Positions 3,130 to 39,953 of a stretch of DNA of 64,000 nt are shown here, one piece after another (positions within the stretch are counted from its first letter, which is position 1; each line of letters opens with the position of its first letter). A model generated the notes under the pieces. It made no database searches and was not told the DNA's origin. It worked only from the letters and a program-made list of their open reading frames with translations. The stretch comes from Streptomyces akebiae (GTDB taxonomy: Bacteria > Actinomycetota > Actinomycetes > Streptomycetales > Streptomycetaceae). The DNA lies in contig NZ_CP080647.1 in assembly GCF_019599145.1 (NCBI RefSeq), forward strand, positions 5,518,001 to 5,582,000, given 5' to 3'. The position numbers and the translations under genes were made by a program.

Positions 3130-5403
3130 ATGATGCCTCGCGACCCCGCCGACCCCCCTGCCGACCCCGCCGGCGACCCCACCCTCCTCCAGGACGTCCT
3201 GGCCCACGAACGCGCGTACCACGACAACTGCCGTGCCGCGCTCGCCGCCATGGTCGAAGGGGCGGGCGAGCAGGTCGTCGTCGGCGAGGACGTCTCCGCC
3301 TCGGGCGCCGACGCGGAGGTGCTCGGGTATCGGCTGCGCAGCCGAGCCAAGGAGATGCGTGAGCTGCCGGAGGGGCCGCTGTTCTTCGGGCGGCTCGACT
3401 TCGCCGCTCGGGCGCGGAGCGACCACGCCGGGCAGAGCTACCACCTCGGGCGGCTGCGGATCAGCGAGGACCCTGCCGTGCCGCCGCTCGTCGTGGACTG
3501 GCGTGCACCGGTTTCGCGGGCCTTCTACCAGGCGAGTTCCCGTGATCCCCAGGGAGTCGCCGTCCGGCGTCGCTTCGGGTGGGCGCCGGGGAGCCGGGGG
3601 GACTCGGCCGACCTCACGGGGCTGGAGGACGAGCACCTGGAACGCCGTAGCCCCTCGAACGGCCCCGGCCCCGGCCCCGGCCCCGAGTCCGGCCCGGAGC
3701 CCGACGCCGACGCCGACGCCGACGTCGGCACTGGCACGTCGTCCCCGGGCAGCCTCCTCGCCGCCGAGATCGAGCGGCCTCGGCTCGGTCCGATGCGCGA
3801 CATCGCCGCCACCATCCAGCCGGAGCAGGACGATCTGGTGCGGGCGGATCTGGCGACCTCCGTCTGCGTGCAGGGCGCCCCCGGCACCGGCAAGACGGCC
3901 GTCGGCCTGCACCGCGCCGCGTACCTGCTCTACACCCACCCCCAGCGCATCCGTCGCGGCGGACTGCTGATCCTCGGCCCCAACCGCACGTTCCTCTCGT
4001 ACATCGCGGAGGTGCTGCCCGCGCTGGGCGAGACGGGCGTACGTCAGTCGACGGTCACGGACGAGATCGCCCGGCACGAGGTGAGGGCGGAGGACGACGA
4101 GCGGGCGGCGGTGGTGAAGCACGACGCGCGGATGGCGGAGGTGCTCCGACGAGCGCTGTACGCCGGCGTCGCGGGCGGCGGCGGGTCCGGGGACCGGTCG
4201 GGGCGGGGGGAGGCGTCGGAGCGGGGGGAGGCGTTCGGCTCCCTAGTCCTGGCGGAGGGCTCGCATCGCTGGCGGGTGGCCGGGGACGAACTTCGGCGGA
4301 TCGTGGCGGACGTACGGGCCGAGGAACTGCCGTACGACGTCGGGCGGGAACGGGTCCGGGCACGGGTGGTCCGGTTGCTGCGGGACCAGGCGGAGCGGCG
4401 GGCCGGGCCGCGCTCGAACGCCTGGCTGTACCGGATCTCGCGGTCGCGGCCGGTCGGCGCGTACGTCGACGCCGTATGGCCGAAGGTCCGGCCGGAGGAG
4501 GTCGTGGCCCGGCTGCTCGGGGACCCGGAGGTGCTCGCCGACGCGGCGGAGGGGCTGCTCGACGCGGACGAGCGGAAGGCCGTCGGCTGGGCGAAGCCCC
4601 CGCGTACCTGGCGGTCGGCCCGCTGGTCGGCCGCCGATCTCGTCCTCCTCGACGAGGTCGCGGGGCTGCTCGCCCACCCCGACGGCTACGGCCATGTCGT
4701 CGTCGACGAGGCCCAGGACCTCTCCCCGATGGAGTGCCGCGCGATCGCCCGCAGAGCGGCCTACGGCTCGGTGACCGTCCTCGGTGACCTCGCCCAGGGG
4801 ACGACCCCGTGGGCCGCCCGCGACTGGCGCGGCCTCCTCTCCCATCTGGGCAAGCCGGACGCCCAGGTCGTCCCTCTGACCACCGGGTTCCGGGTGCCGC
4901 AGGCCGTCGTGGCACTGGCGAACGGGCTGCTGGGACGCCTGGGGGTGGACGTGCCCGCCGCCCGGTCCCTGCGCAGGGACGGGGAGTTGCGGATCAGGAG
5001 GGTGGGGGGTGGAGGGGGAGAGGGGGCGGAGACCGGGCCGGTCACGGTCGGCCAGTGGGTTCTGGGTGAGGATGTCGTCGCCGAGGCCGTGGCCGCCGTG
5101 CGGGACGCGCTCGCGGATGAGGGGTCCGTCGGGGTCATCGCGGCCGATGGACCCGACGTCGTACGGCTGTGGCAGGCGCTCGACGAGGCCGGGATCACCG
5201 CGGGTGGCCCGGACGAACCGCAGGCGCGGGTCACGGTGTTGGGGGCGGGCGTCGCGAAGGGTCTGGAGTACGACCATGTCGTGGTCGTCGAACCGGCGGC
5301 GATCGCGGCCGCCGAGGAACGGGGGCTGCACCGTCTGTACGTCGTCCTCACCCGGGCGGTGTCGCGACTGGACGTGGTGCACGCGCGTGCGTTGCCGTGG
5401 TGA
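3130..5403 (+). CDS. HelD/UvrD-like superfamily 1 helicase (RNA polymerase-associated type)
   Basis: 757 residues, the size of actinobacterial HelD-like proteins. HelD proteins bind RNA polymerase, push nucleic acid out and recycle stalled enzyme with ATP; the HelR branch protects against rifamycins. An N-terminal helical arm covers residues 15-60. Walker A GAPGTGKT is at 249-256, Walker B VVVDEAQDL with DEAQD at 526-530, and the C-terminal UvrD motifs end in LYVVLTRAVSRLDVVH. Residues about 178-205 are a Gly-Pro then Asp-Ala low-complexity insert, and 345-365 is another Gly/Glu-rich insert. Start ATG 3130 fits a leaderless promoter. HelR versus a general HelD cannot be separated from sequence alone. 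Confidence 0.9.
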   Translation: MMPRDPADPPADPAGDPTLLQDVLAHERAYHDNCRAALAAMVEGAGEQVVVGEDVSASGADAEVLGYRLRSRAKEMRELPEGPLFFGRLDFAARARSDHAGQSYHLGRLRISEDPAVPPLVVDWRAPVSRAFYQASSRDPQGVAVRRRFGWAPGSRGDSADLTGLEDEHLERRSPSNGPGPGPGPESGPEPDADADADVGTGTSSPGSLLAAEIERPRLGPMRDIAATIQPEQDDLVRADLATSVCVQGAPGTGKTAVGLHRAAYLLYTHPQRIRRGGLLILGPNRTFLSYIAEVLPALGETGVRQSTVTDEIARHEVRAEDDERAAVVKHDARMAEVLRRALYAGVAGGGGSGDRSGRGEASERGEAFGSLVLAEGSHRWRVAGDELRRIVADVRAEELPYDVGRERVRARVVRLLRDQAERRAGPRSNAWLYRISRSRPVGAYVDAVWPKVRPEEVVARLLGDPEVLADAAEGLLDADERKAVGWAKPPRTWRSARWSAADLVLLDEVAGLLAHPDGYGHVVVDEAQDLSPMECRAIARRAAYGSVTVLGDLAQGTTPWAARDWRGLLSHLGKPDAQVVPLTTGFRVPQAVVALANGLLGRLGVDVPAARSLRRDGELRIRRVGGGGGEGAETGPVTVGQWVLGEDVVAEAVAAVRDALADEGSVGVIAADGPDVVRLWQALDEAGITAGGPDEPQARVTVLGAGVAKGLEYDHVVVVEPAAIAAAEERGLHRLYVVLTRAVSRLDVVHARALPW

Positions 5404-27690: not shown

Positions 27691-27874
27691 GGAACTCCCC
27701 ACGGGCGTAAGCGGCTAAAGCGGTGAGCACAACTTACGAACGCGGTCGCGCGGAGAGCCACCCAATTAACAACTCCGGTCAACTGTCGAGGGCGAGGCCG
27801 ACAGGGAACGGTGGGGACGCCGGCCGGGCCTGTCCGTCTGTCGGCCAGACGTGTGGTGGTTCTCGGCCGTCGAT

Positions 27875-27880
27875 TACGCT
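27875..27880 (+). promoter_or_regulatory. -10 of gpm, leaderless
   Basis: TACGCT ends seven bases before ATG 27888; no Shine-Dalgarno precedes the start. Confidence 0.5.
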
Positions 27881-27887
27881 CGGGGCC

Positions 27888-28649
27888 ATGGCCGACGCAC
27901 CGTACAAGCTGATCCTCCTCCGCCACGGCGAGAGCGAGTGGAACGAGAAGAACCTGTTCACCGGCTGGGTGGACGTCAACCTCACTCCGAAGGGCGAGAA
28001 GGAGGCGACGCGCGGCGGTGAGCTGCTGAAGGACGCCGGCCTGCTCCCGGACGTGCTGCACACCTCCCTCCAGCGACGTGCCATCCGCACCGCGCAGCTG
28101 GCCCTGGAATCCGCCGACCGCCACTGGATCCCGGTCCACCGCAGCTGGCGCCTGAACGAGCGCCACTACGGCGCCCTCCAGGGCAAGGACAAGGCCCAGA
28201 CCCTCGCCGAGTTCGGCGAGGAGCAGTTCATGCTGTGGCGCCGCTCGTACGACACCCCGCCGCCCCCGCTCGCGGACGACTCGGAGTTCTCCCAGGCGGC
28301 GGACGCGCGCTACGCGACCATCCCGCCGGAGCTGCGCCCCCGCACCGAGTGCCTCAAGGACGTCGTCACCCGCATGCTGCCGTACTGGTACGACGGCATC
28401 GTCCCCGACCTCCTGGCCGGCCGCACGGTCCTCGTCGCCGCCCACGGCAACTCCCTCCGCGCCCTCGTCAAGCACCTCGACGGCATCTCGGACGCCGACA
28501 TCGCGGGCCTCAACATCCCGACCGGCATCCCCCTCGCCTACGAACTCGACGCCGACTTCAAGCCCCTGAACCCCGGCGGCACCTACCTCGACCCCGAGGC
28601 GGCGGCGGCTGCGATCGAGGCGGTCAAGAACCAGGGCAAGAAGAAGTAA
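27888..28649 (+). CDS. gpmA: 2,3-bisphosphoglycerate-dependent phosphoglycerate mutase
   Basis: 253 residues, full length. It interconverts 3- and 2-phosphoglycerate in glycolysis and gluconeogenesis. [20 protein letters not shown] holds the phospho-accepting His; [20 protein letters not shown] and [18 protein letters not shown] (second catalytic His) are intact. The last codons (NQGKKK and stop) are encoded by the 19-bp sequence repeated at 39935, so the 3' end is the attachment site of an integrated element that restores the reading frame. Downstream of the same gene in other actinobacteria lie the phoU/senX3-regX3 genes, here pushed 14 kb away. Confidence 0.97.
28631..28649 (+). other. attL core (19 bp)
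   Basis: CCAGGGCAAGAAGAAGTAA, the final codons and stop of gpm, identical to 39935-39953. The bases just before it (CAAGAA versus CAAGAC) also match except one. Confidence 0.85.
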
Positions 28650-28714: not shown

Positions 28715-28731
28715 GCCGTCTGTGGGCCGTC
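28715..28731. repeat. 17-bp arm-type repeat, copy 1
   Basis: GCCGTCTGTGGGCCGTC, 66 bp right of the attL core and touching the int stop codon. An identical copy is at 40031-40047 and a one-mismatch copy at 39811-39827. Candidate integrase arm-binding sites. Confidence 0.6.
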
Positions 28732-29974
28732 AGGTGTGGGACGGCTCGGGCCGGGCCGTGTCGAAGACCGCAGCCACGGCCTTGCGCGTGCGCTCCTGGC
28801 TGGACGGCATGAGATGCGCGTACACACGGAGGGTCAGACCGGGGTCGGAGTGACCCAGGTACTCGGCGAGGGCCTTGATGTTCTCGCCAGCGTCCAGGAG
28901 CACCGAGGCATAGAAGTGCCGGAGCGCGTGCATGCCGTTCTCGCGGGACTCGGCGTAGGACTCGCCCGGCTTGCGCTCGGGGATCACCCCGGTCGAGGCC
29001 AGCGCCCGCTTCCACACCTCCTCGTTGAGTGAAGTCCGCCAGACGTGCCCGCCGCGCGGTCCGGTGAAGATCAGCCGCTTGGTCACCGGAGGCCCGTCCG
29101 CCACCTTCCACGGCAAGGTGATCTCGACCGGCGGGAACCGCTTCATGTGTGCCCGGAGCGCATCAGCGACCGGCCCAGGGAGCGGTACGTCCCGCAGCTT
29201 GCCGCCCTTGGGCGGAGCGAACACCGCCTTGCTCCGGCTCAGCTTCAGTTGCTGGACCACGTGAAGCGTGTCCGACTCGAAGTCGATCGCGTCGACAGCG
29301 ACGCCAAGGATCTCCCCCTGGCGGAGCCCGCAGCCGCCACCCAGGTCAACCATGGCTTGGTACCGCTCAGGCATGGCGGCCTGGACGGCGAAGACCCGTT
29401 CAGGCGTCCAGGGAGCGATCCGCTTCACGTCCACCGTCGGCGGCCGGACCGAGCGAGCTGCACACGGATTCCGGGGAAGGTGCCCGTCGTCCACGGCTGC
29501 ACTCAGCGCGGCCCGCACGTTGGAGTAGATCGTCCGGGCATACGAGCCCCGGACGCCGTTCTCTTGCAGCCTCCCGACCCAGTCACGGATGTGAGCAGGC
29601 TGGAAGGAGCCGAGCGGACGTGATCCCAGGTAGGGGAAGGCGTGCAACCGAAGCTGTGACTCCATCGAAGCCTGGGTGTTCGGATCCGGCGCGTGAGTCA
29701 CCCACTTCTCGGCGTACTGCTCGAAGGTGATCCGAGCCGCACGCGGGTCGATGTACTGCCCGCGCGCCATGTCAGCCTCAGTGTGCGCCAGCCACTGATC
29801 AGCGAGCCGCTTCTGCCGGTCGGGGAAGCTCTTGGACTTCTCGGTACCGTCCGGCCCGATGTACCGGGCCCGGTAACGGGACCCAGTGCCGTACCGCTCC
29901 GTCTTGACCTTGCGAGCCTTCCCATCCGGCCCGGTCTCCGTTCTGTACCAGCGGTCTTGGACGTGCCCGGCCAT
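28730..29974 (-). CDS. int: Tyrosine recombinase/integrase of the AICE
   Basis: 414 residues. An N-terminal arm-binding region (VQDRWYRTETGPDGKARKVK) leads to a SAM-like core-binding domain (ITFEQYAEKWVTHAPDPNTQ), then the catalytic domain: Arg in GGCGLRQGEILGVAVD, HxxR in MHALRHFYASVLLDAG, His in AEYLGHSDPG and nucleophile Tyr in TLRVYAHLMPSS. All catalytic residues are present, so the enzyme should be active. ATG 29974 overlaps the xis stop by ATGA, the usual AICE coupling. The stop lies 81 bp from the attL core, the normal position next to attP. Confidence 0.95.
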   Translation of the reverse strand: MAGHVQDRWYRTETGPDGKARKVKTERYGTGSRYRARYIGPDGTEKSKSFPDRQKRLADQWLAHTEADMARGQYIDPRAARITFEQYAEKWVTHAPDPNTQASMESQLRLHAFPYLGSRPLGSFQPAHIRDWVGRLQENGVRGSYARTIYSNVRAALSAAVDDGHLPRNPCAARSVRPPTVDVKRIAPWTPERVFAVQAAMPERYQAMVDLGGGCGLRQGEILGVAVDAIDFESDTLHVVQQLKLSRSKAVFAPPKGGKLRDVPLPGPVADALRAHMKRFPPVEITLPWKVADGPPVTKRLIFTGPRGGHVWRTSLNEEVWKRALASTGVIPERKPGESYAESRENGMHALRHFYASVLLDAGENIKALAEYLGHSDPGLTLRVYAHLMPSSQERTRKAVAAVFDTARPEPSHT

Positions 29975-30210
29975 CAGGCAGCAGCCCCTTCCATCAGGGA
30001 CTCGACCCAGGCCCGGACGTCCACGGGGTCGTAGCGCAGATGCCGGCCAACCCGGAAGCCACGCGGCCCAGTGCGCTTCCGCCGCCACTGGTAGACCGTC
30101 TCGACCGGCACGCCCAGAATCTCGGCAACGTCCAGTGGAGTCAGGAACCGCGAAGGCAGAGCGCGCGGTTCGGCAGCCGCTTCTACGACGGCGAGATGAC
30201 GCTTAGCCAT
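29974..30210 (-). CDS. xis: Excisionase, MerR-like HTH
   Basis: 78 residues. A winged-HTH of the DNA-binding excisionase type: SRFLTPLDVAEILGVPVETV, YQWRRKRTGPRGFRVGRHLR and YDPVDVRAWVESL. With Int it directs excision from the gpm site. ATG 30210 has AAGGAGAG upstream and overlaps the rep stop by 8 bp; the stop overlaps the int start. The frame is open for another 16 codons upstream inside rep. Confidence 0.92.
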   Translation of the reverse strand: MAKRHLAVVEAAAEPRALPSRFLTPLDVAEILGVPVETVYQWRRKRTGPRGFRVGRHLRYDPVDVRAWVESLMEGAAA

Positions 30211-31549
30211 GGGTCGGCTCTCCTTCTGTTCCGGGGGCGGGTTCGAGGGATGCGGCAAGCCAGGCTTCGGTATCGGACAGGCCGGTTCCGGCGAAGACCC
30301 AGTGCGCGAGGACGTACGTCGTGTCGGGCGCCGCTTCGTTGGCCGTTGCAGCTTGGGCGCGGCGCCATTGGGCGCGGGCGTCGCGGAGGGCGCCGAGGGT
30401 GGTGGAGTAGTGGCGGGATTTGGTGGAGAAGTGGCCGCGGAAGCCGAGCATGTGGGCCCAGGCGCGGAGGCGGAGGTGTTCGAGGTCTTTGCGTGCGCCG
30501 AGGGTCCAGGCGGTTCGGATGAGGCGGCGGGCGTGGTCGCTGATGTCGAGCTGGGCGAGCTCGGCGGCGAACTTCAGCGGTCGGTCGAGAGCTCCCGTGG
30601 CTGTCTCGGCGCCCTTGGTCGCGTACTTGGCGATGTACGCGGCCACGGCCCGCTCGGTCAGCTCCTGGCCGTCGTTGAAGTCGGCGGAGCGGATGGTGCG
30701 GACGTCGAGTTGGCGACCGAAGGCGAAGGTGTGGGTGCGTCCATCGATGGCCGGGCCGTCGACACGCACCTTGGCTGCCGCTGCCTCGATGGCGTTGGTG
30801 AGGAGTTCGGCGGTGGCCCAGGCCGGGGGCGGGGTGTCGCCGCCGATGGGGCCGTCGATGCGTATGACGGCGTGGAAGTGGACGGCGCCACGCTTCTGGT
30901 ATTCGGCGACCTTGGCGAAGGAGACGCGGGCGTGGTCGCGGAACCGGCGTTGTGACAGTCCCGCACGCTTGGCGACTTCCCGGCGCAGGTACGTGGAGAA
31001 GCGTCGCCAGAGCGGACCGGCGTGCGCATTCCAGAGAACGGCCGCTTCGTAGTCGTACGTGTCCGGGTCGAGCGAGGTACCGAGTACGGCGTCGTCCTGG
31101 TCGTGGCGGGTGCCGCAGCGGCAGGGGCGCCCGTTGGAAGGGCGGTTGTGGACCGGGCCGAAGCTCGGGGCGGTGAAGGTGGCGAAGACGCGCGGGTGGG
31201 TGGCGACGTGTTCGGGGACGCCCTTGCCGCCGCGCAGGCCGGAGGTGATCAGGTGGAAGGTGTCACGGCGGTAGACCTCGGAGCAGGCCGCGCACCGAGT
31301 CGTACGGCGGTTGTTGCAGCGGACGAGGAGTTGGCCGGCCGGGAGGTCGGTGGAGTCGAGGTGCTGGAGGACGCGGCCGATCTCACCGGTCGTGGTGTCG
31401 ACGTCGTGCTCGGTGCGGTGGCCGTCGAGGCGGATCGGGTTGACGCAGCCGCCGAGGCCGGAGAGCTGACGGAGGATACCGGGCAGGGTGCCGTGCTCGG
31501 CCAGCTTCGCGAGTTCCGGGAGCGGGGGCGGTGTGGTGCGGGTGAAGAT
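30203..31549 (-). CDS. repSA: RepSA-like rolling-circle replication initiator, non-canonical ATC start
   Basis: 448 residues if begun at 31549, close to RepSA of pSAM2. The frame is open without stops from 31661 to 30203. It contains a zinc-finger-like region (VRCNNRRTTRCAACSEVYRR, with CRCGTRHDQ later), an HUH motif in RGAVHFHAVIRIDGP, and the catalytic tyrosine motif AAYIAKYATKGAE. There is no ATG, GTG or TTG before 30769, and starting there would delete HUH. AGAAGGAGA on the minus strand lies seven bases before an ATC codon at 31549-31547, exactly where ATG is expected. Either AUC initiates weakly or an ATG was lost. It lies 91 bp after spdD and overlaps xis. Confidence 0.8.
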   Translation of the reverse strand: MFTRTTPPPLPELAKLAEHGTLPGILRQLSGLGGCVNPIRLDGHRTEHDVDTTTGEIGRVLQHLDSTDLPAGQLLVRCNNRRTTRCAACSEVYRRDTFHLITSGLRGGKGVPEHVATHPRVFATFTAPSFGPVHNRPSNGRPCRCGTRHDQDDAVLGTSLDPDTYDYEAAVLWNAHAGPLWRRFSTYLRREVAKRAGLSQRRFRDHARVSFAKVAEYQKRGAVHFHAVIRIDGPIGGDTPPPAWATAELLTNAIEAAAAKVRVDGPAIDGRTHTFAFGRQLDVRTIRSADFNDGQELTERAVAAYIAKYATKGAETATGALDRPLKFAAELAQLDISDHARRLIRTAWTLGARKDLEHLRLRAWAHMLGFRGHFSTKSRHYSTTLGALRDARAQWRRAQAATANEAAPDTTYVLAHWVFAGTGLSDTEAWLAASLEPAPGTEGEPTHG

Positions 31550-33264: not shown

Positions 33265-34641
33265 TCAGTCGGTCACCGGGCGCGGCTGCACCGCCGGGGC
33301 CGAAGACTCGACGGGCCGCACGGGGGTGTCGGGCTGGAAGGGCTTGAGCGCGGGAAGGTCGGGCACCAGATGGGCCGCATCCCGGCAGATCTCGGCGGCG
33401 GCGCCGAGGGAGAGGTACGGCGTGCGGATGCGGGACCAGCCGCCGGAGGTGTCACCGGCCACAGCCAGGCCGGGCAGTTCGGGAGCGATAGCACAGGCAG
33501 CGGAGACCGCTTCGGGGGCGATGTCGCCGAGGGCCATCTTCGCGGAGGCTTCGTCGTTGACGCGGTGGCAGACCCGGCCGGTGAGCTGAGCGCGGAGCAT
33601 GGTGGCGCCCTTGCCCAGCTCGGCGCCGAAGCGCTGACCGCAGACCTCCAGGTAGATCCCGGCGGCCCGGCCGAGCTGGGCGAGGCGGATGAGCTGAGTG
33701 ACCATCTCGTCCCGCCGTTCCTCGTCCTTCTTCGTGGCGACGAGGAAGAGTTCGGCAATCTCGTCGACGAACAGCACGATCGGCACCGGGCGTTCGCTGT
33801 CGGGCAGGCCCCAGATGTCGGAGGTGATCTCCTCGTCCGGGGTGCCCGGTGCGATGCCCTGCCGGGCCTTGATCAGGTCGTATCGGTCCTCCATTTCCTT
33901 GACGAGCGCGGGCAGCAGCTCGGCAGCTTCGTCGGGATCGGTGGCGAGGGCGGAGAGCCGGGAGGCGAACGGCGCCAGCTCCACACCGCGCTTGCAGTCG
34001 ATGCCGACCAGTGCGACGGGCTGCCGGGCGAGTCCGGTGATCAGGTGGCGCAGGTACATGGACTTCCCCGACAGCGTGGCGCCGAGGGTGAGCTGATGCG
34101 GAATGGTGCGGTAATCGCGCACGAAGGGAGTCGCGTCCTCCCTCAGTGCCACGGGCACCTTGAGGAGTTCGGCGTTGGCCTTGCGAGGCATCCGCACGTT
34201 CCGCAGCACGTCGAAGCCGACGAGGCGCAGTTCGACCAAGCCCGGCTTGACCGTCGTCACGTAGACGGCGTGCACGCCCCAGGCATGCCGCAGCCGCTCG
34301 GCCGAGGCGGCGACGTCCGCCGGTTCCTGGCCCGGAGCGAGCCGGAGCCGGAGCCGCAGCCCGGTCGAGGTGGGCCGGATGATGCCCCGACGCGGCGGTA
34401 CCGGCCGGACCTCCCGCCGAGTGGTGGCCTTGACGGCGAGGACCCGCAGCCGGGACGGCGCCACGGTCAGCCCGCATGCCTCCATGACCGAGCCGTAGGA
34501 GCCGAGGAGCCGGGCGGTGGATATCGGCAGGCCGACCGTGGGCCAGTACACGCGGGGGTGCTTGGCCCGGGTGTAGGCGGCCCCGCCACCGAGTGCGGCG
34601 ACAGGACCACCCACCTCCAGAAGTGTCACCAGATCGGACAT
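33265..34641 (-). CDS. traSA: FtsK/SpoIIIE-type DNA translocase, TraSA-like
   Basis: 458 residues. A short N-terminal hydrophobic segment (VTLLEVGGPVAALGGGAAY), then the motor: Walker A in LTLGATLSGKSMYLRHL, Walker B in VPIVLFVDEIAELFLVATKK, and QLIRLAQLGRAAGIYLEVCG with the sensor region of FtsK-like proteins. In pSAM2-type elements this single protein moves double-stranded DNA between mycelia. ATG 34641 overlaps the upstream stop (ATGA). The Pro/Val tail is variable in the family. Confidence 0.92.
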   Translation of the reverse strand: MSDLVTLLEVGGPVAALGGGAAYTRAKHPRVYWPTVGLPISTARLLGSYGSVMEACGLTVAPSRLRVLAVKATTRREVRPVPPRRGIIRPTSTGLRLRLRLAPGQEPADVAASAERLRHAWGVHAVYVTTVKPGLVELRLVGFDVLRNVRMPRKANAELLKVPVALREDATPFVRDYRTIPHQLTLGATLSGKSMYLRHLITGLARQPVALVGIDCKRGVELAPFASRLSALATDPDEAAELLPALVKEMEDRYDLIKARQGIAPGTPDEEITSDIWGLPDSERPVPIVLFVDEIAELFLVATKKDEERRDEMVTQLIRLAQLGRAAGIYLEVCGQRFGAELGKGATMLRAQLTGRVCHRVNDEASAKMALGDIAPEAVSAACAIAPELPGLAVAGDTSGGWSRIRTPYLSLGAAAEICRDAAHLVPDLPALKPFQPDTPVRPVESSAPAVQPRPVTD

Positions 34642-34997
34642 CAGGCGGTTGCTCCCATGGCGGCCGGGAAGGCGGCCGGAGTCACGGCGGCGGCGCGGAA
34701 GGCGATGCCGTGGCGCTGCTGGCCGTTGAACACCGACTCCCACGGCCGGGCGACCAGCCCCGGCAGCGAGACCGGCGCCCCCAGTGCCAGCCCTTCGGAC
34801 ACACCGCCTTCCGGCACGGTGACCTTGACCAGCGACGACTCCCCGTCCTCGATGTAGACGACGCCGATCGTCATCAGCGCTTCCCCGCTGACGGCGTCCT
34901 TGGCGATCTCGCCCGTCTGCCGGTCCCGGACCTTGGGCTCAGGAGCCTCGGTCAGCAGGATCGTGGCGGCTGAGGTCTCAACACGAATGGTGCGCAA
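34641..34997 (-). CDS. SCO3933-family regulatory protein
   Basis: 118 residues, RTIRVETSAATILLTEAPEP at the start and LVARPWESVFNGQQRHGIAF near the end, the pattern of the SCO3933 family that precedes tra genes in AICEs. It starts at TTG 34997; no in-frame ATG or GTG fits the family N-terminus. The leader holds an ACTCGTCTA site (35014). It is the first gene of the leftward transfer/replication unit and is translationally coupled to tra. Confidence 0.8.
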   Translation of the reverse strand: MRTIRVETSAATILLTEAPEPKVRDRQTGEIAKDAVSGEALMTIGVVYIEDGESSLVKVTVPEGGVSEGLALGAPVSLPGLVARPWESVFNGQQRHGIAFRAAAVTPAAFPAAMGATA

Positions 34998-37776: not shown

Positions 37777-38760
37777 GTGAAGCTCGAATCAGCGGTCGAA
37801 CTGAAGGACAAGCTGCTTGAGGACTTCCGGCTCGAGGAACCGGTAGTAGCGCGGTTGGGGCGACGACTCTGTGTCGCGGCTGCGGCCGAAAGGCCGTCGC
37901 CAATGCACGTAGCCTCGTTCCCCGATACCGGGGGTTTCGGGATCGGGGTGGCCGTCCTGAAGCCTGGAAAGTACGGCATAGCAGTGCGGGTGCAATCCGT
38001 CACACCACGCACACATACCCTAGCCGCGCGGATCAGGAAAGAGGCTCACGACGAGGTCGATGTCCAGTTCATCGGTCGAGTGAACGCTTGCGTAGCTTCG
38101 TTGAGACCTGGCGTCTCAATCGGTCATGGGCTCGTCACTGCGGGTACGCTCGGGGCTTTCGTGACCCTGAGGGATCAACCTGGCGACCATGTGTTGTCGA
38201 ACAATCACGTTCTTGCGGCGTGCGACTTGGGTAACATCGGTGACTCAATTCTGCACCCAGGAACGAAAGATGGGTCGCCAGCTGCCCCGTGCACTCGCAT
38301 TGGATCTCTCTCCGAGGTCGAGAAACTCCGAGCCCATCGCGCGGCCTCCAACATCATGGATGCAGCCACTTGTCGATTGGACGATGACGTCCAATTCGAA
38401 CCCAGCCCGCCCCATCTGCGGGGGGTGGCCCCGCTAGCTCTTGATGTGCCGGTGGAGAAGTTGGGTAAAGCAACTAACCACACGACCGGGATGGTGAGAG
38501 CTATCGTTGATGACGTATGGGTCGAGTATGAGGGCGGCAATGCGTACCGCTTCGACGGGCAGTTTGAAGTCGAAGGGGATGGAGTTGATCCTTTCTGTTC
38601 GGATGGCGACAGTGGCGCGATTGTGTGGCACTCTGGTACCTCCGACGCCGTGGGGCTCCTTTTCGCGCGCAGTGCGAGTGGCGGCCACAATGGAATGGGC
38701 GTCACATACGTGAACCCCCTCGAGCCGGTACTGAGCCGGTTCGGAGCGACGCTATCTTGA
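37777..38760 (+). CDS. Trypsin-like serine protease, NAL1-like
   Basis: 327 residues, no signal peptide. The C-terminal 220 residues are a trypsin-fold protease: VSIGHGLVTAGTLGAFV, catalytic His144 in VLSNNHVLAACDLGNIGD, likely Asp195 in SNIMDAATCRLDDD and Ser279 in PFCSDGDSGAIVW. The VTAGTLG-SNNHVLA-GDSGA layout is that of NAL1-like peptidases of bacteria and plants. Residues about 53-105 (GFGIGVAVLKPGKYGIAVRV to FIGRVNA) form a small alpha/beta domain that resembles the whole protein encoded next. GTG 37777 has GGGAGG upstream. GC content is lower than in the surroundings. A cytosolic conflict or immunity role is plausible but unproven. Confidence 0.8.
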   Translation: MKLESAVELKDKLLEDFRLEEPVVARLGRRLCVAAAAERPSPMHVASFPDTGGFGIGVAVLKPGKYGIAVRVQSVTPRTHTLAARIRKEAHDEVDVQFIGRVNACVASLRPGVSIGHGLVTAGTLGAFVTLRDQPGDHVLSNNHVLAACDLGNIGDSILHPGTKDGSPAAPCTRIGSLSEVEKLRAHRAASNIMDAATCRLDDDVQFEPSPPHLRGVAPLALDVPVEKLGKATNHTTGMVRAIVDDVWVEYEGGNAYRFDGQFEVEGDGVDPFCSDGDSGAIVWHSGTSDAVGLLFARSASGGHNGMGVTYVNPLEPVLSRFGATLS

Positions 38761-38776
38761 TTAGCAAGGAGAAAAC

Positions 38777-39004
38777 ATGACCGACCTGCAGACGGTGCGA
38801 GCTGCGCAGCAGGATCTTGCGGCGTACCTGGCTACCGATCGTCGAGTGAATGGGGTCGGTATCACAAGCGGCACAGACGGTTACGCGATCAAGGTCAACG
38901 TTGTGAGCGCTCAGGACCGGCCAGATCTGCCGACGGTATTCAAGGGCGTGCCTGTCGAAGTGGCCGTTGTCGGAAAGATCAAAGCTGTCGGCTCTCGAAG
39001 CTAG
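38777..39004 (+). CDS. 75-residue partner of the protease, stand-alone copy of its N-terminal domain
   Basis: A helix (LQTVRAAQQDLAAYLATDRR) followed by VNGVGITSGTDGYAIKVNVV, then LPTVFKGVPVEVAVVGKIKA. The G-V/I-G-I...Y-A-I-K-V-N-V...G-V-P-V-E-V...G-K-I-x-A pattern parallels residues 53-105 of the upstream protease. In NAL1-like proteases a domain with this GVGI-x-IKV pattern is usually fused. It begins 17 bp after the protease stop with AAGGAG upstream, clearly one operon. Possible inhibitor, substrate adaptor or sensor. Its 3' end overlaps the next convergent gene by 26 bp. Confidence 0.75.
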   Translation: MTDLQTVRAAQQDLAAYLATDRRVNGVGITSGTDGYAIKVNVVSAQDRPDLPTVFKGVPVEVAVVGKIKAVGSRS

Positions 39005-39356
39005 CCGATGAGGGCGCCAAGACCTCGACTGCTTGGGTTTTGGCCTGATCCGCCGCGACTGCTCCCGCGATCATTCCCAGGCCTCCTAGGAGCATCAGCA
39101 GGCCAATACCGATGATCAGCAAACCCTGAGCCATCCCTCGCTGAGCGGGACTGTACTTGTCACCGCCGAAGGCGATAGCGAAGGACTTCTTGAGCAGCCA
39201 CCAGATGACATCCCATACCGACTGTTGGCCCTCCGCTGCCGTAGCTCTCGCAGTGTCACGTGATGAGCCACGGAGGAAGAGCAGCAAGCCGACAAGAAGG
39301 AAGGCGGTGCCTGCGACTCCCACCGCGGCGCCGATGATGAGGATGGGCCAGTTCAT
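38979..39356 (-). CDS. Small membrane protein, convergent with protease operon
   Basis: 125 residues from ATG 39356. Spans at the start (ILIIGAAVGVAGTAFLLVGL) and near residue 85 (GLLIIGIGLLMLLGGLGMIA, continuing hydrophobic), a polar loop with WDVIWWLLKKSFAIAFGGD between them, and a polar tail. Family unknown. It overlaps the 3' end of the 75-residue gene by 26 bp, and the frame is open far upstream without good coding signs. A membrane component of the protease system is possible by position only. Confidence 0.6.
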   Translation of the reverse strand: MNWPILIIGAAVGVAGTAFLLVGLLLFLRGSSRDTARATAAEGQQSVWDVIWWLLKKSFAIAFGGDKYSPAQRGMAQGLLIIGIGLLMLLGGLGMIAGAVAADQAKTQAVEVLAPSSASFESRQL

Positions 39357-39827: not shown

Positions 39828-39934
39828 CGAGGCCGCTCAACAGTGGCCAAGGACGACCAACGACGACCACTCGGCGCTCGAGCCCACCGTCCCTGACCAG
39901 CAAAAACCCAGCTCACCAAGATCCCCGACAAGAC

Positions 39935-39953
39935 CCAGGGCAAGAAGAAGTAA
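39935..39953 (+). other. attR core (19 bp)
   Basis: Second copy of CCAGGGCAAGAAGAAGTAA, a displaced end of gpm with its stop codon. It is followed by a tandem duplication of GAAGTAACCCCACA (39947-39960 and 39961-39974). Confidence 0.85.

Follow-up and report, generated by a model that had tools for sequence, protein, structure and literature searches.

The window, a 64,000-nucleotide stretch of the Streptomyces akebiae contig NZ_CP080647.1 (positions 5,518,001 to 5,582,000 of the forward strand), contains two closely linked genes on its forward strand. The first encodes a trypsin-fold serine protease that resembles rice NARROW LEAF 1 (NAL1), and the second a protein of 75 amino acids (aa) that resembles the NAL1 N-terminal domain, NAL1_N. 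An earlier note on this DNA had proposed that the small protein is a free copy of its protease's own N-terminal domain and that the pair could be a defense or conflict module; its observation is confirmed here and its interpretation supported in part. The two genes have the following features, some placed with the aid of AlphaFold2 (AF2) models.

37777..38760, + strand: NAL1-like trypsin-fold serine protease gene (327 aa, GTG start)
37777..38091, + strand: protease N-terminal domain, residues 1-105 (AF2 model and hhalign to the small family)
38095..38757, + strand: protease core, residues 107-327
38206..38208, + strand: catalytic His144 codon (invariant, 70/70 aligned proteases)
38359..38361, + strand: catalytic Asp195 codon (invariant, 70/70 aligned proteases)
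38611..38613, + strand: catalytic Ser279 codon (invariant, 70/70 aligned proteases)
38761..38776, + strand: intergenic spacer of 16 bp with a Shine-Dalgarno-like AAGGAG for the small gene (from the sequence)
38777..39004, + strand: free NAL1_N-like, prodomain-like protein, 75 aa (family neighborhood and AF2 model)

The intact H144-D195-S279 triad described in the earlier note is thus present in the window protease and invariant among its aligned relatives. Close linkage of the genes was also correct, although the spacer counts 16 bp rather than 17; its AAGGAG lies 5 bases upstream of the small-gene ATG. The protease has no export signal: it lacks a hydrophobic N terminus, and its highest 19-residue Kyte-Doolittle mean is 1.43, at residue 113. 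Both genes are lower in GC content (0.602 for the protease, 0.596 for the small gene) than the window (0.701) or the rest of the mobile element that carries them (0.686), again as first noted. A reverse-strand open reading frame (ORF) with hydrophobic stretches, 38979-39356, is convergent with the small gene and overlaps its end by 26 bp; it had no Pfam match and was not noticed next to the pair in another genome of the same genus (G295).

Pairing of a small-protein family with NAL1-like proteases

A protein-database search with the window small protein alone returned only itself; its family was brought to light through genomic neighborhoods. In G295, a protease 42% identical to ours is followed, after 16 bp, by a small protein with 52% identity. 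We built a first profile from the window and G295 small proteins, ran it on the 80 best of 567 confirmed protease loci, and rebuilt it. With the rebuilt profile, a small ORF was found directly after the protease and on the same strand in 75 of the 80 loci (E ≤ 1.2e-7; gap -157 to 271 bp, median 56). A weaker match at locus L116 brings to 76 of 80 the loci in which the two adjoin, and the family profile found no small ORF next to the protease in the other four (L081, L084, L101, and L104). The neighborhood survey suggested in the earlier note therefore bears out the linkage; as the 80 are the best of 567, the figure applies to proteases closely related to that of the window.

Loci with the small gene come from Actinomycetota, Pseudomonadota, Chloroflexota, Acidobacteriota, Planctomycetota, and Gemmatimonadota (phylum names partly from general knowledge). 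The family profile matched 631 protein clusters, and among the matches listed, 120 of 120 carried no Pfam domain. No Pfam or NCBIfam family matched more than one of 38 small-family members. The small protein thus belongs to a real family that has no Pfam or NCBIfam model of its own. On Rubrobacter radiotolerans plasmid 2, both partners are annotated as "hypothetical proteins" (RRADSPS_RS15435/15440; small ORF E 3.5e-11). An 81-aa ORF that did not match the small-family profile occupies the equivalent place on a Rhizobium leguminosarum plasmid.

Co-occurrence gave a second line of evidence. Among 396 genomes of the same phylum, 19 had the small type (E ≤ 1e-3), 21 the protease (E ≤ 1e-5), and 14 both, compared to 1.0 expected (P 6e-17; one step of this analysis dereplicated 70 to 26). 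Twelve of the 21 proteases adjoin a free small ORF, which is downstream in six (window included), upstream in three, and on the opposite strand in three. Among the rest, the domain lies inside the protease frame in one genome (G396) and 4 kb away in another (G447), and no small domain was found for seven. Of another 22 Streptomycetaceae genomes, whose proteases are more distant, nine had a small ORF (E ≤ 0.0035); it precedes the protease on the same strand in eight and lies on the opposite strand in one. The full pair is rare in the host family, at 2 of 394 genomes; both this survey and that of the 396 scored part of the first-look candidates per genome, so that absences in them are no proof. 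In one protein cluster of six sequences (P0084), the small domain is fused to the C terminus of the protease. The pairing is real, and the variable order and orientation, together with a natural fusion, point to a functional tie rather than to chance linkage.

None of 80 protease relatives on viral contigs had an adjacent free small protein at E ≤ 0.01, and one of these contigs (L126) gave a weak match (E 0.001) 1.1 kb from the protease. Tblastn searches found no match for the window small protein in plasmids, nor for a related small protein (L047) in phages and plasmids. In one genome that had no protease match, a small-type domain lies behind a DUF3221 domain (L284:2656-3285; 37.4 bits), indicating that the small-type domain has other uses. 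On a Rhizobium ruizarguesonis plasmid (L217:2319-4648, and 3410-3673 on the reverse strand), a NAL1-like protease stands next to peptide-modification genes of the radical SAM and HEXXH kinds, and a small divergent ORF there (E 0.0036) lacks an annotation.

Relationship of the small protein to the protease N-terminal domain

The earlier note had described a sequence pattern common to the small protein and protease residues 53-105. BLASTP of the two window proteins did not align this region (best E 0.70, located elsewhere), making profiles necessary. With 71 small proteins no longer than 90 aa (57 after filtering) and the proteases of 290-360 aa among 120, hhalign matched the small family to the protease N-terminal domain at 96.4% (E 1.2e-9). 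The match covers 75 columns, from the first helix through the last strand. Thus, the likeness holds between families, and it is not limited to residues 53-105. Homology between the free and fused domains extends from end to end and includes a common AR..K helix motif. The rest of the protease scored 0.3% in the same comparison, and the best of 100 column-shuffled controls scored 16.8 versus 52.2 for the real alignment. The small profile also matches the N-terminal domain within single proteases (P0100, 2.7e-5; L146, 1.3e-5).

These comparisons lead to NAL1_N (PF25608, cut-off 27 bits). The N terminus of L146, a viral-contig protease, passes this model at 33.5 bits, and free small proteins of the upstream type come near it (L291, 24.7; L028, 19.3), while neither the window small protein nor 37 other downstream-type members matched at E ≤ 1. 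In profile-profile comparison with the N termini of up to 75 viral-contig proteases, among which L146 alone was scanned with PF25608, the small family scored 95.8% (E 7.5e-9), whereas the N-terminal domain of the window protease subfamily reached only 2.0%. The free protein is therefore the bridge to the NAL1_N form. It keeps a proline followed by [VI][DN]GV.V ahead of the last strand, where the built-in domain of the window subfamily has a helix; the latter domain has drifted from the NAL1_N form.

Is the small protein a copy of its own protease's N-terminal domain, as first proposed? A tree of 69 N-terminal domains and 70 small proteins divides into the two kinds (support 0.994), with no sequence on the wrong side. 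This set represents 70 of 77 pairs; long small proteins, and protease frames shorter than 250 or longer than 460 residues, were excluded. Identity between small protein and N-terminal domain is 0.256 within loci and 0.249 across them, and 0.19 for the window pair. As the tree separates the two kinds and a shared locus confers little added identity, we reject the copy hypothesis: free and fused forms are two ancient clades, and their split is old.

The window protease shares its fold, domain order, and His-Asp-Ser triad with rice NAL1 (NAL1_N, PF25608, plus Nal1_C, PF25819), but is only 21% identical to it, and the bacterial pair adds the second, free domain as a separate gene. We know of no plant counterpart of this free domain. 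Because the window protease scores 12.2 bits against Nal1_C, below the cut-off of 26.1, we call it NAL1-like rather than a NAL1 member. Pair-bearing relatives do pass (G295, 29.3; P0084, 31.5; Rubrobacter, 27.1 bits). The literature we searched, which lay mostly outside subscription journals, contained no description of a NAL1-like protease in bacteria accompanied by its N-terminal type of domain as a separate protein.

The integrative element and the gene neighborhoods

The pair is cargo of a mobile element, as the earlier note had recognized, and lies close to one end of it. The element is of the pSAM2 type, with genes for an integrase, part of the pSAM2 protein RepSA, an FtsK/SpoIIIE transfer protein, a GntR-UTRA regulator, and a Nudix protein.

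28625..28649, + strand: putative att repeat copy, in the 3′ end of a phosphoglycerate-mutase-like gene (27723-28649, His_Phos_1)
28730..30088, - strand: tyrosine integrase (Phage_integrase, 51.4 bits)
30203..30769, - strand: C-terminal part of the RepSA (pSAM2) replication initiator (PF20199 positions 262-436 of 438, 184.5 bits)
33265..34743, - strand: FtsK/SpoIIIE-type transfer protein (PF01580, 121 bits)
39929..39953, + strand: putative att repeat copy at the opposite element end (24/25 identical to the 28625-28649 copy)

The direct repeats probably mark the element ends; the best match among 20 shuffles was 17/25. ORF 30203-30769 matches RepSA only in part; the remainder may lie in another frame, and the replication gene of the element may thus be broken.

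Among the flanking ORFs compared, no third gene was common across clades. The largest clusters, named by eye, were a 19-member LLM/F420-like cluster and a 9-member cluster of 649-745 aa. In 19 Geodermatophilaceae loci (L050, L054, L059, L062, L064, L065, L073, L078, L086, L091, L092, L098, L102, L106, L110, L112, L117, L122, and L123), an LLM/F420-like ORF of 345-395 aa comes after the pair, and 14 of the 19 have an RpoC-sized ORF of 1299-1305 aa (names by size or eye). On the opposite side, several have ORFs of 156 and 699 aa, which fit RpsG and EF-G by size.

Possible roles of the free protein

The AF2 model of the small protein (pLDDT 91.2) contains a helix (residues 4-17) and three strands (24-32, 35-42, and 58-64). 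The modeled protease N-terminal domain has helices at 3-20 and 77-89 and strands at 54-62, 65-72, 94-98, and 102-104. When the small-protein model was searched with Foldseek, the five best Protein Data Bank matches were alpha-lytic protease pro regions, with pro-region residues 85-166 the best-matching part. The predicted fold may thus bear some likeness to that of a protease prodomain. The strongly conserved family positions (G28, G66, P52, V58, and V40) look structural. Gly66 is followed by a short tail; among 196 aligned members it measures 5 residues in 107 and 6 in 38, and its last residue is Arg in 75. The window protein is atypical at two strongly conserved positions, with Gln for Lys11 and Lys for Asp56, and its tail has 9 residues.

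We judge the chances about even that the pair consists of a cytosolic protease and a prodomain-like subunit that controls it in trans; this subunit would serve as foldase, as inhibitor with a short conserved C-terminal tail, or as both. The large gene would supply a cytosolic NAL1-like serine protease with its built-in N-terminal NAL1_N-like domain, and the small gene a second version of it, which branched off long ago and persists as a free subunit in its own right. This subunit would bind its protease, most likely on the core in the manner of a pro region, and would control it as the alpha-lytic pro region does its enzyme, helping the core to reach or keep its active fold. It may also restrain the protease, with its short tail placed in or near the active-site cleft. 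A substrate, a partner, or a change in assembly could then displace the free subunit and release the protease. The Foldseek matches to pro regions are modest, however, and sequence homology to the pro region was sought and not found (Pro_Al_protease, PF02983; hhalign 0.6% and 2.7% against 30 members). The protease core fold is like that of alpha-lytic protease and Streptomyces griseus protease B, the enzymes that carry this pro region, but here the domain is supplied in trans and there is no export signal. The same Foldseek list contains another free prodomain-like protein, the alpha-lytic protease prodomain-like protein of Desulfovibrio piger (4hlb), a 95-residue chain with a weak match (rank 33, E 0.55, prob 0.28).

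Trypsin-like proteases adjoined by small proteins are also the setting of the trypsin-co-occurring domains Trypco1 and Trypco2 (PF19493/PF19631), as described by Kaur et al. (2020; PMC7159879). The small family is neither of these: hhalign gave 1.9% and 0.1% against 30 and 21 members, and no Trypco domain matched in 38 small-family members. By eye, we noticed no MoxR or vWA gene, as in Trypco systems, around the window pair, and the pair has no nuclease, unlike the NucA-trypsin "System 3" of the same paper. A relative from the genus Streptomyces (L030:1015-3009), in which a NAL1-like protease is fused to Endonuclease_NS, resembles that system. Five of the eight plasmid matches listed (Rhizobium, Tsukamurella) included four annotated NS endonucleases.

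NAL1 forms rings, and NAL1-like proteases may do so too; the free domain could instead be an assembly subunit that replaces or caps N-terminal domains in a mixed ring oligomer, setting open and closed states while leaving the active site untouched. The full-length homology of free and fused domains, AR..K motif included, fits such a role, as do the deposited structures of rice NAL1, which are titled "close" and "open" forms. The fold searches favor the pro-region match, however, and we consider this explanation unlikely. An adaptor that recognizes protease substrates and brings them in, either as a mimic of the N-terminal domain or by docking on it, would account for the pairing with a triad intact in 70/70 proteases. 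Such a role is distinctly unlikely, as the conserved positions have a structural look and most family members lack an extra recognition module.

A toxin-antitoxin or anti-phage module, with the protease as effector and the small protein as restraint, would suit element cargo of lower GC content that is rare in its host family. PADLOC-DB 2.0 had no system-model match for either window protein. Among relatives, one of 38 small proteins matched the candidate model PDC-M02B (E 8e-4), a match of uncertain meaning, and one of 21 proteases weakly matched MTase_II (E 0.024). PHROGs gave matches only at E ≥ 0.024. The absence of a phage match for L047 also speaks against such a module, as do the location conserved in the 19 clustered Geodermatophilaceae loci and neighbors that otherwise vary between clades. 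Element cargo and rarity show that the pair can move, not what it does. The defense role proposed in the earlier note is thus unsupported, and we regard it as highly improbable. There is a very slight chance that the protease has the small protein as its dedicated substrate and cuts it to give a signal, since the pairing and basic C-terminal residues (often Arg) would fit, but it is a compact domain conserved throughout, and the P0084 fusion holds both parts in one chain.

The rice gene NAL1 affects yield and leaf shape, and to our knowledge the control of its activity is not settled. With a related N-terminal domain made as a separate small protein in several phyla, the bacterial pair offers a direct bench handle on the protease and places a family of at least 631 protein clusters in a functional context for the first time. 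It is possible, though rather doubtful, that NAL1-like proteases, including rice NAL1, are pro-domain proteases that relocated to the cytosol and never cleave off their pro domain, and that several bacterial phyla add a second, trans-acting one that turns the enzyme on or off. In that case, the free protein would be the founding member of a family of intracellular protease pro domains that act in trans, and would give a clue to the switching of NAL1 itself.
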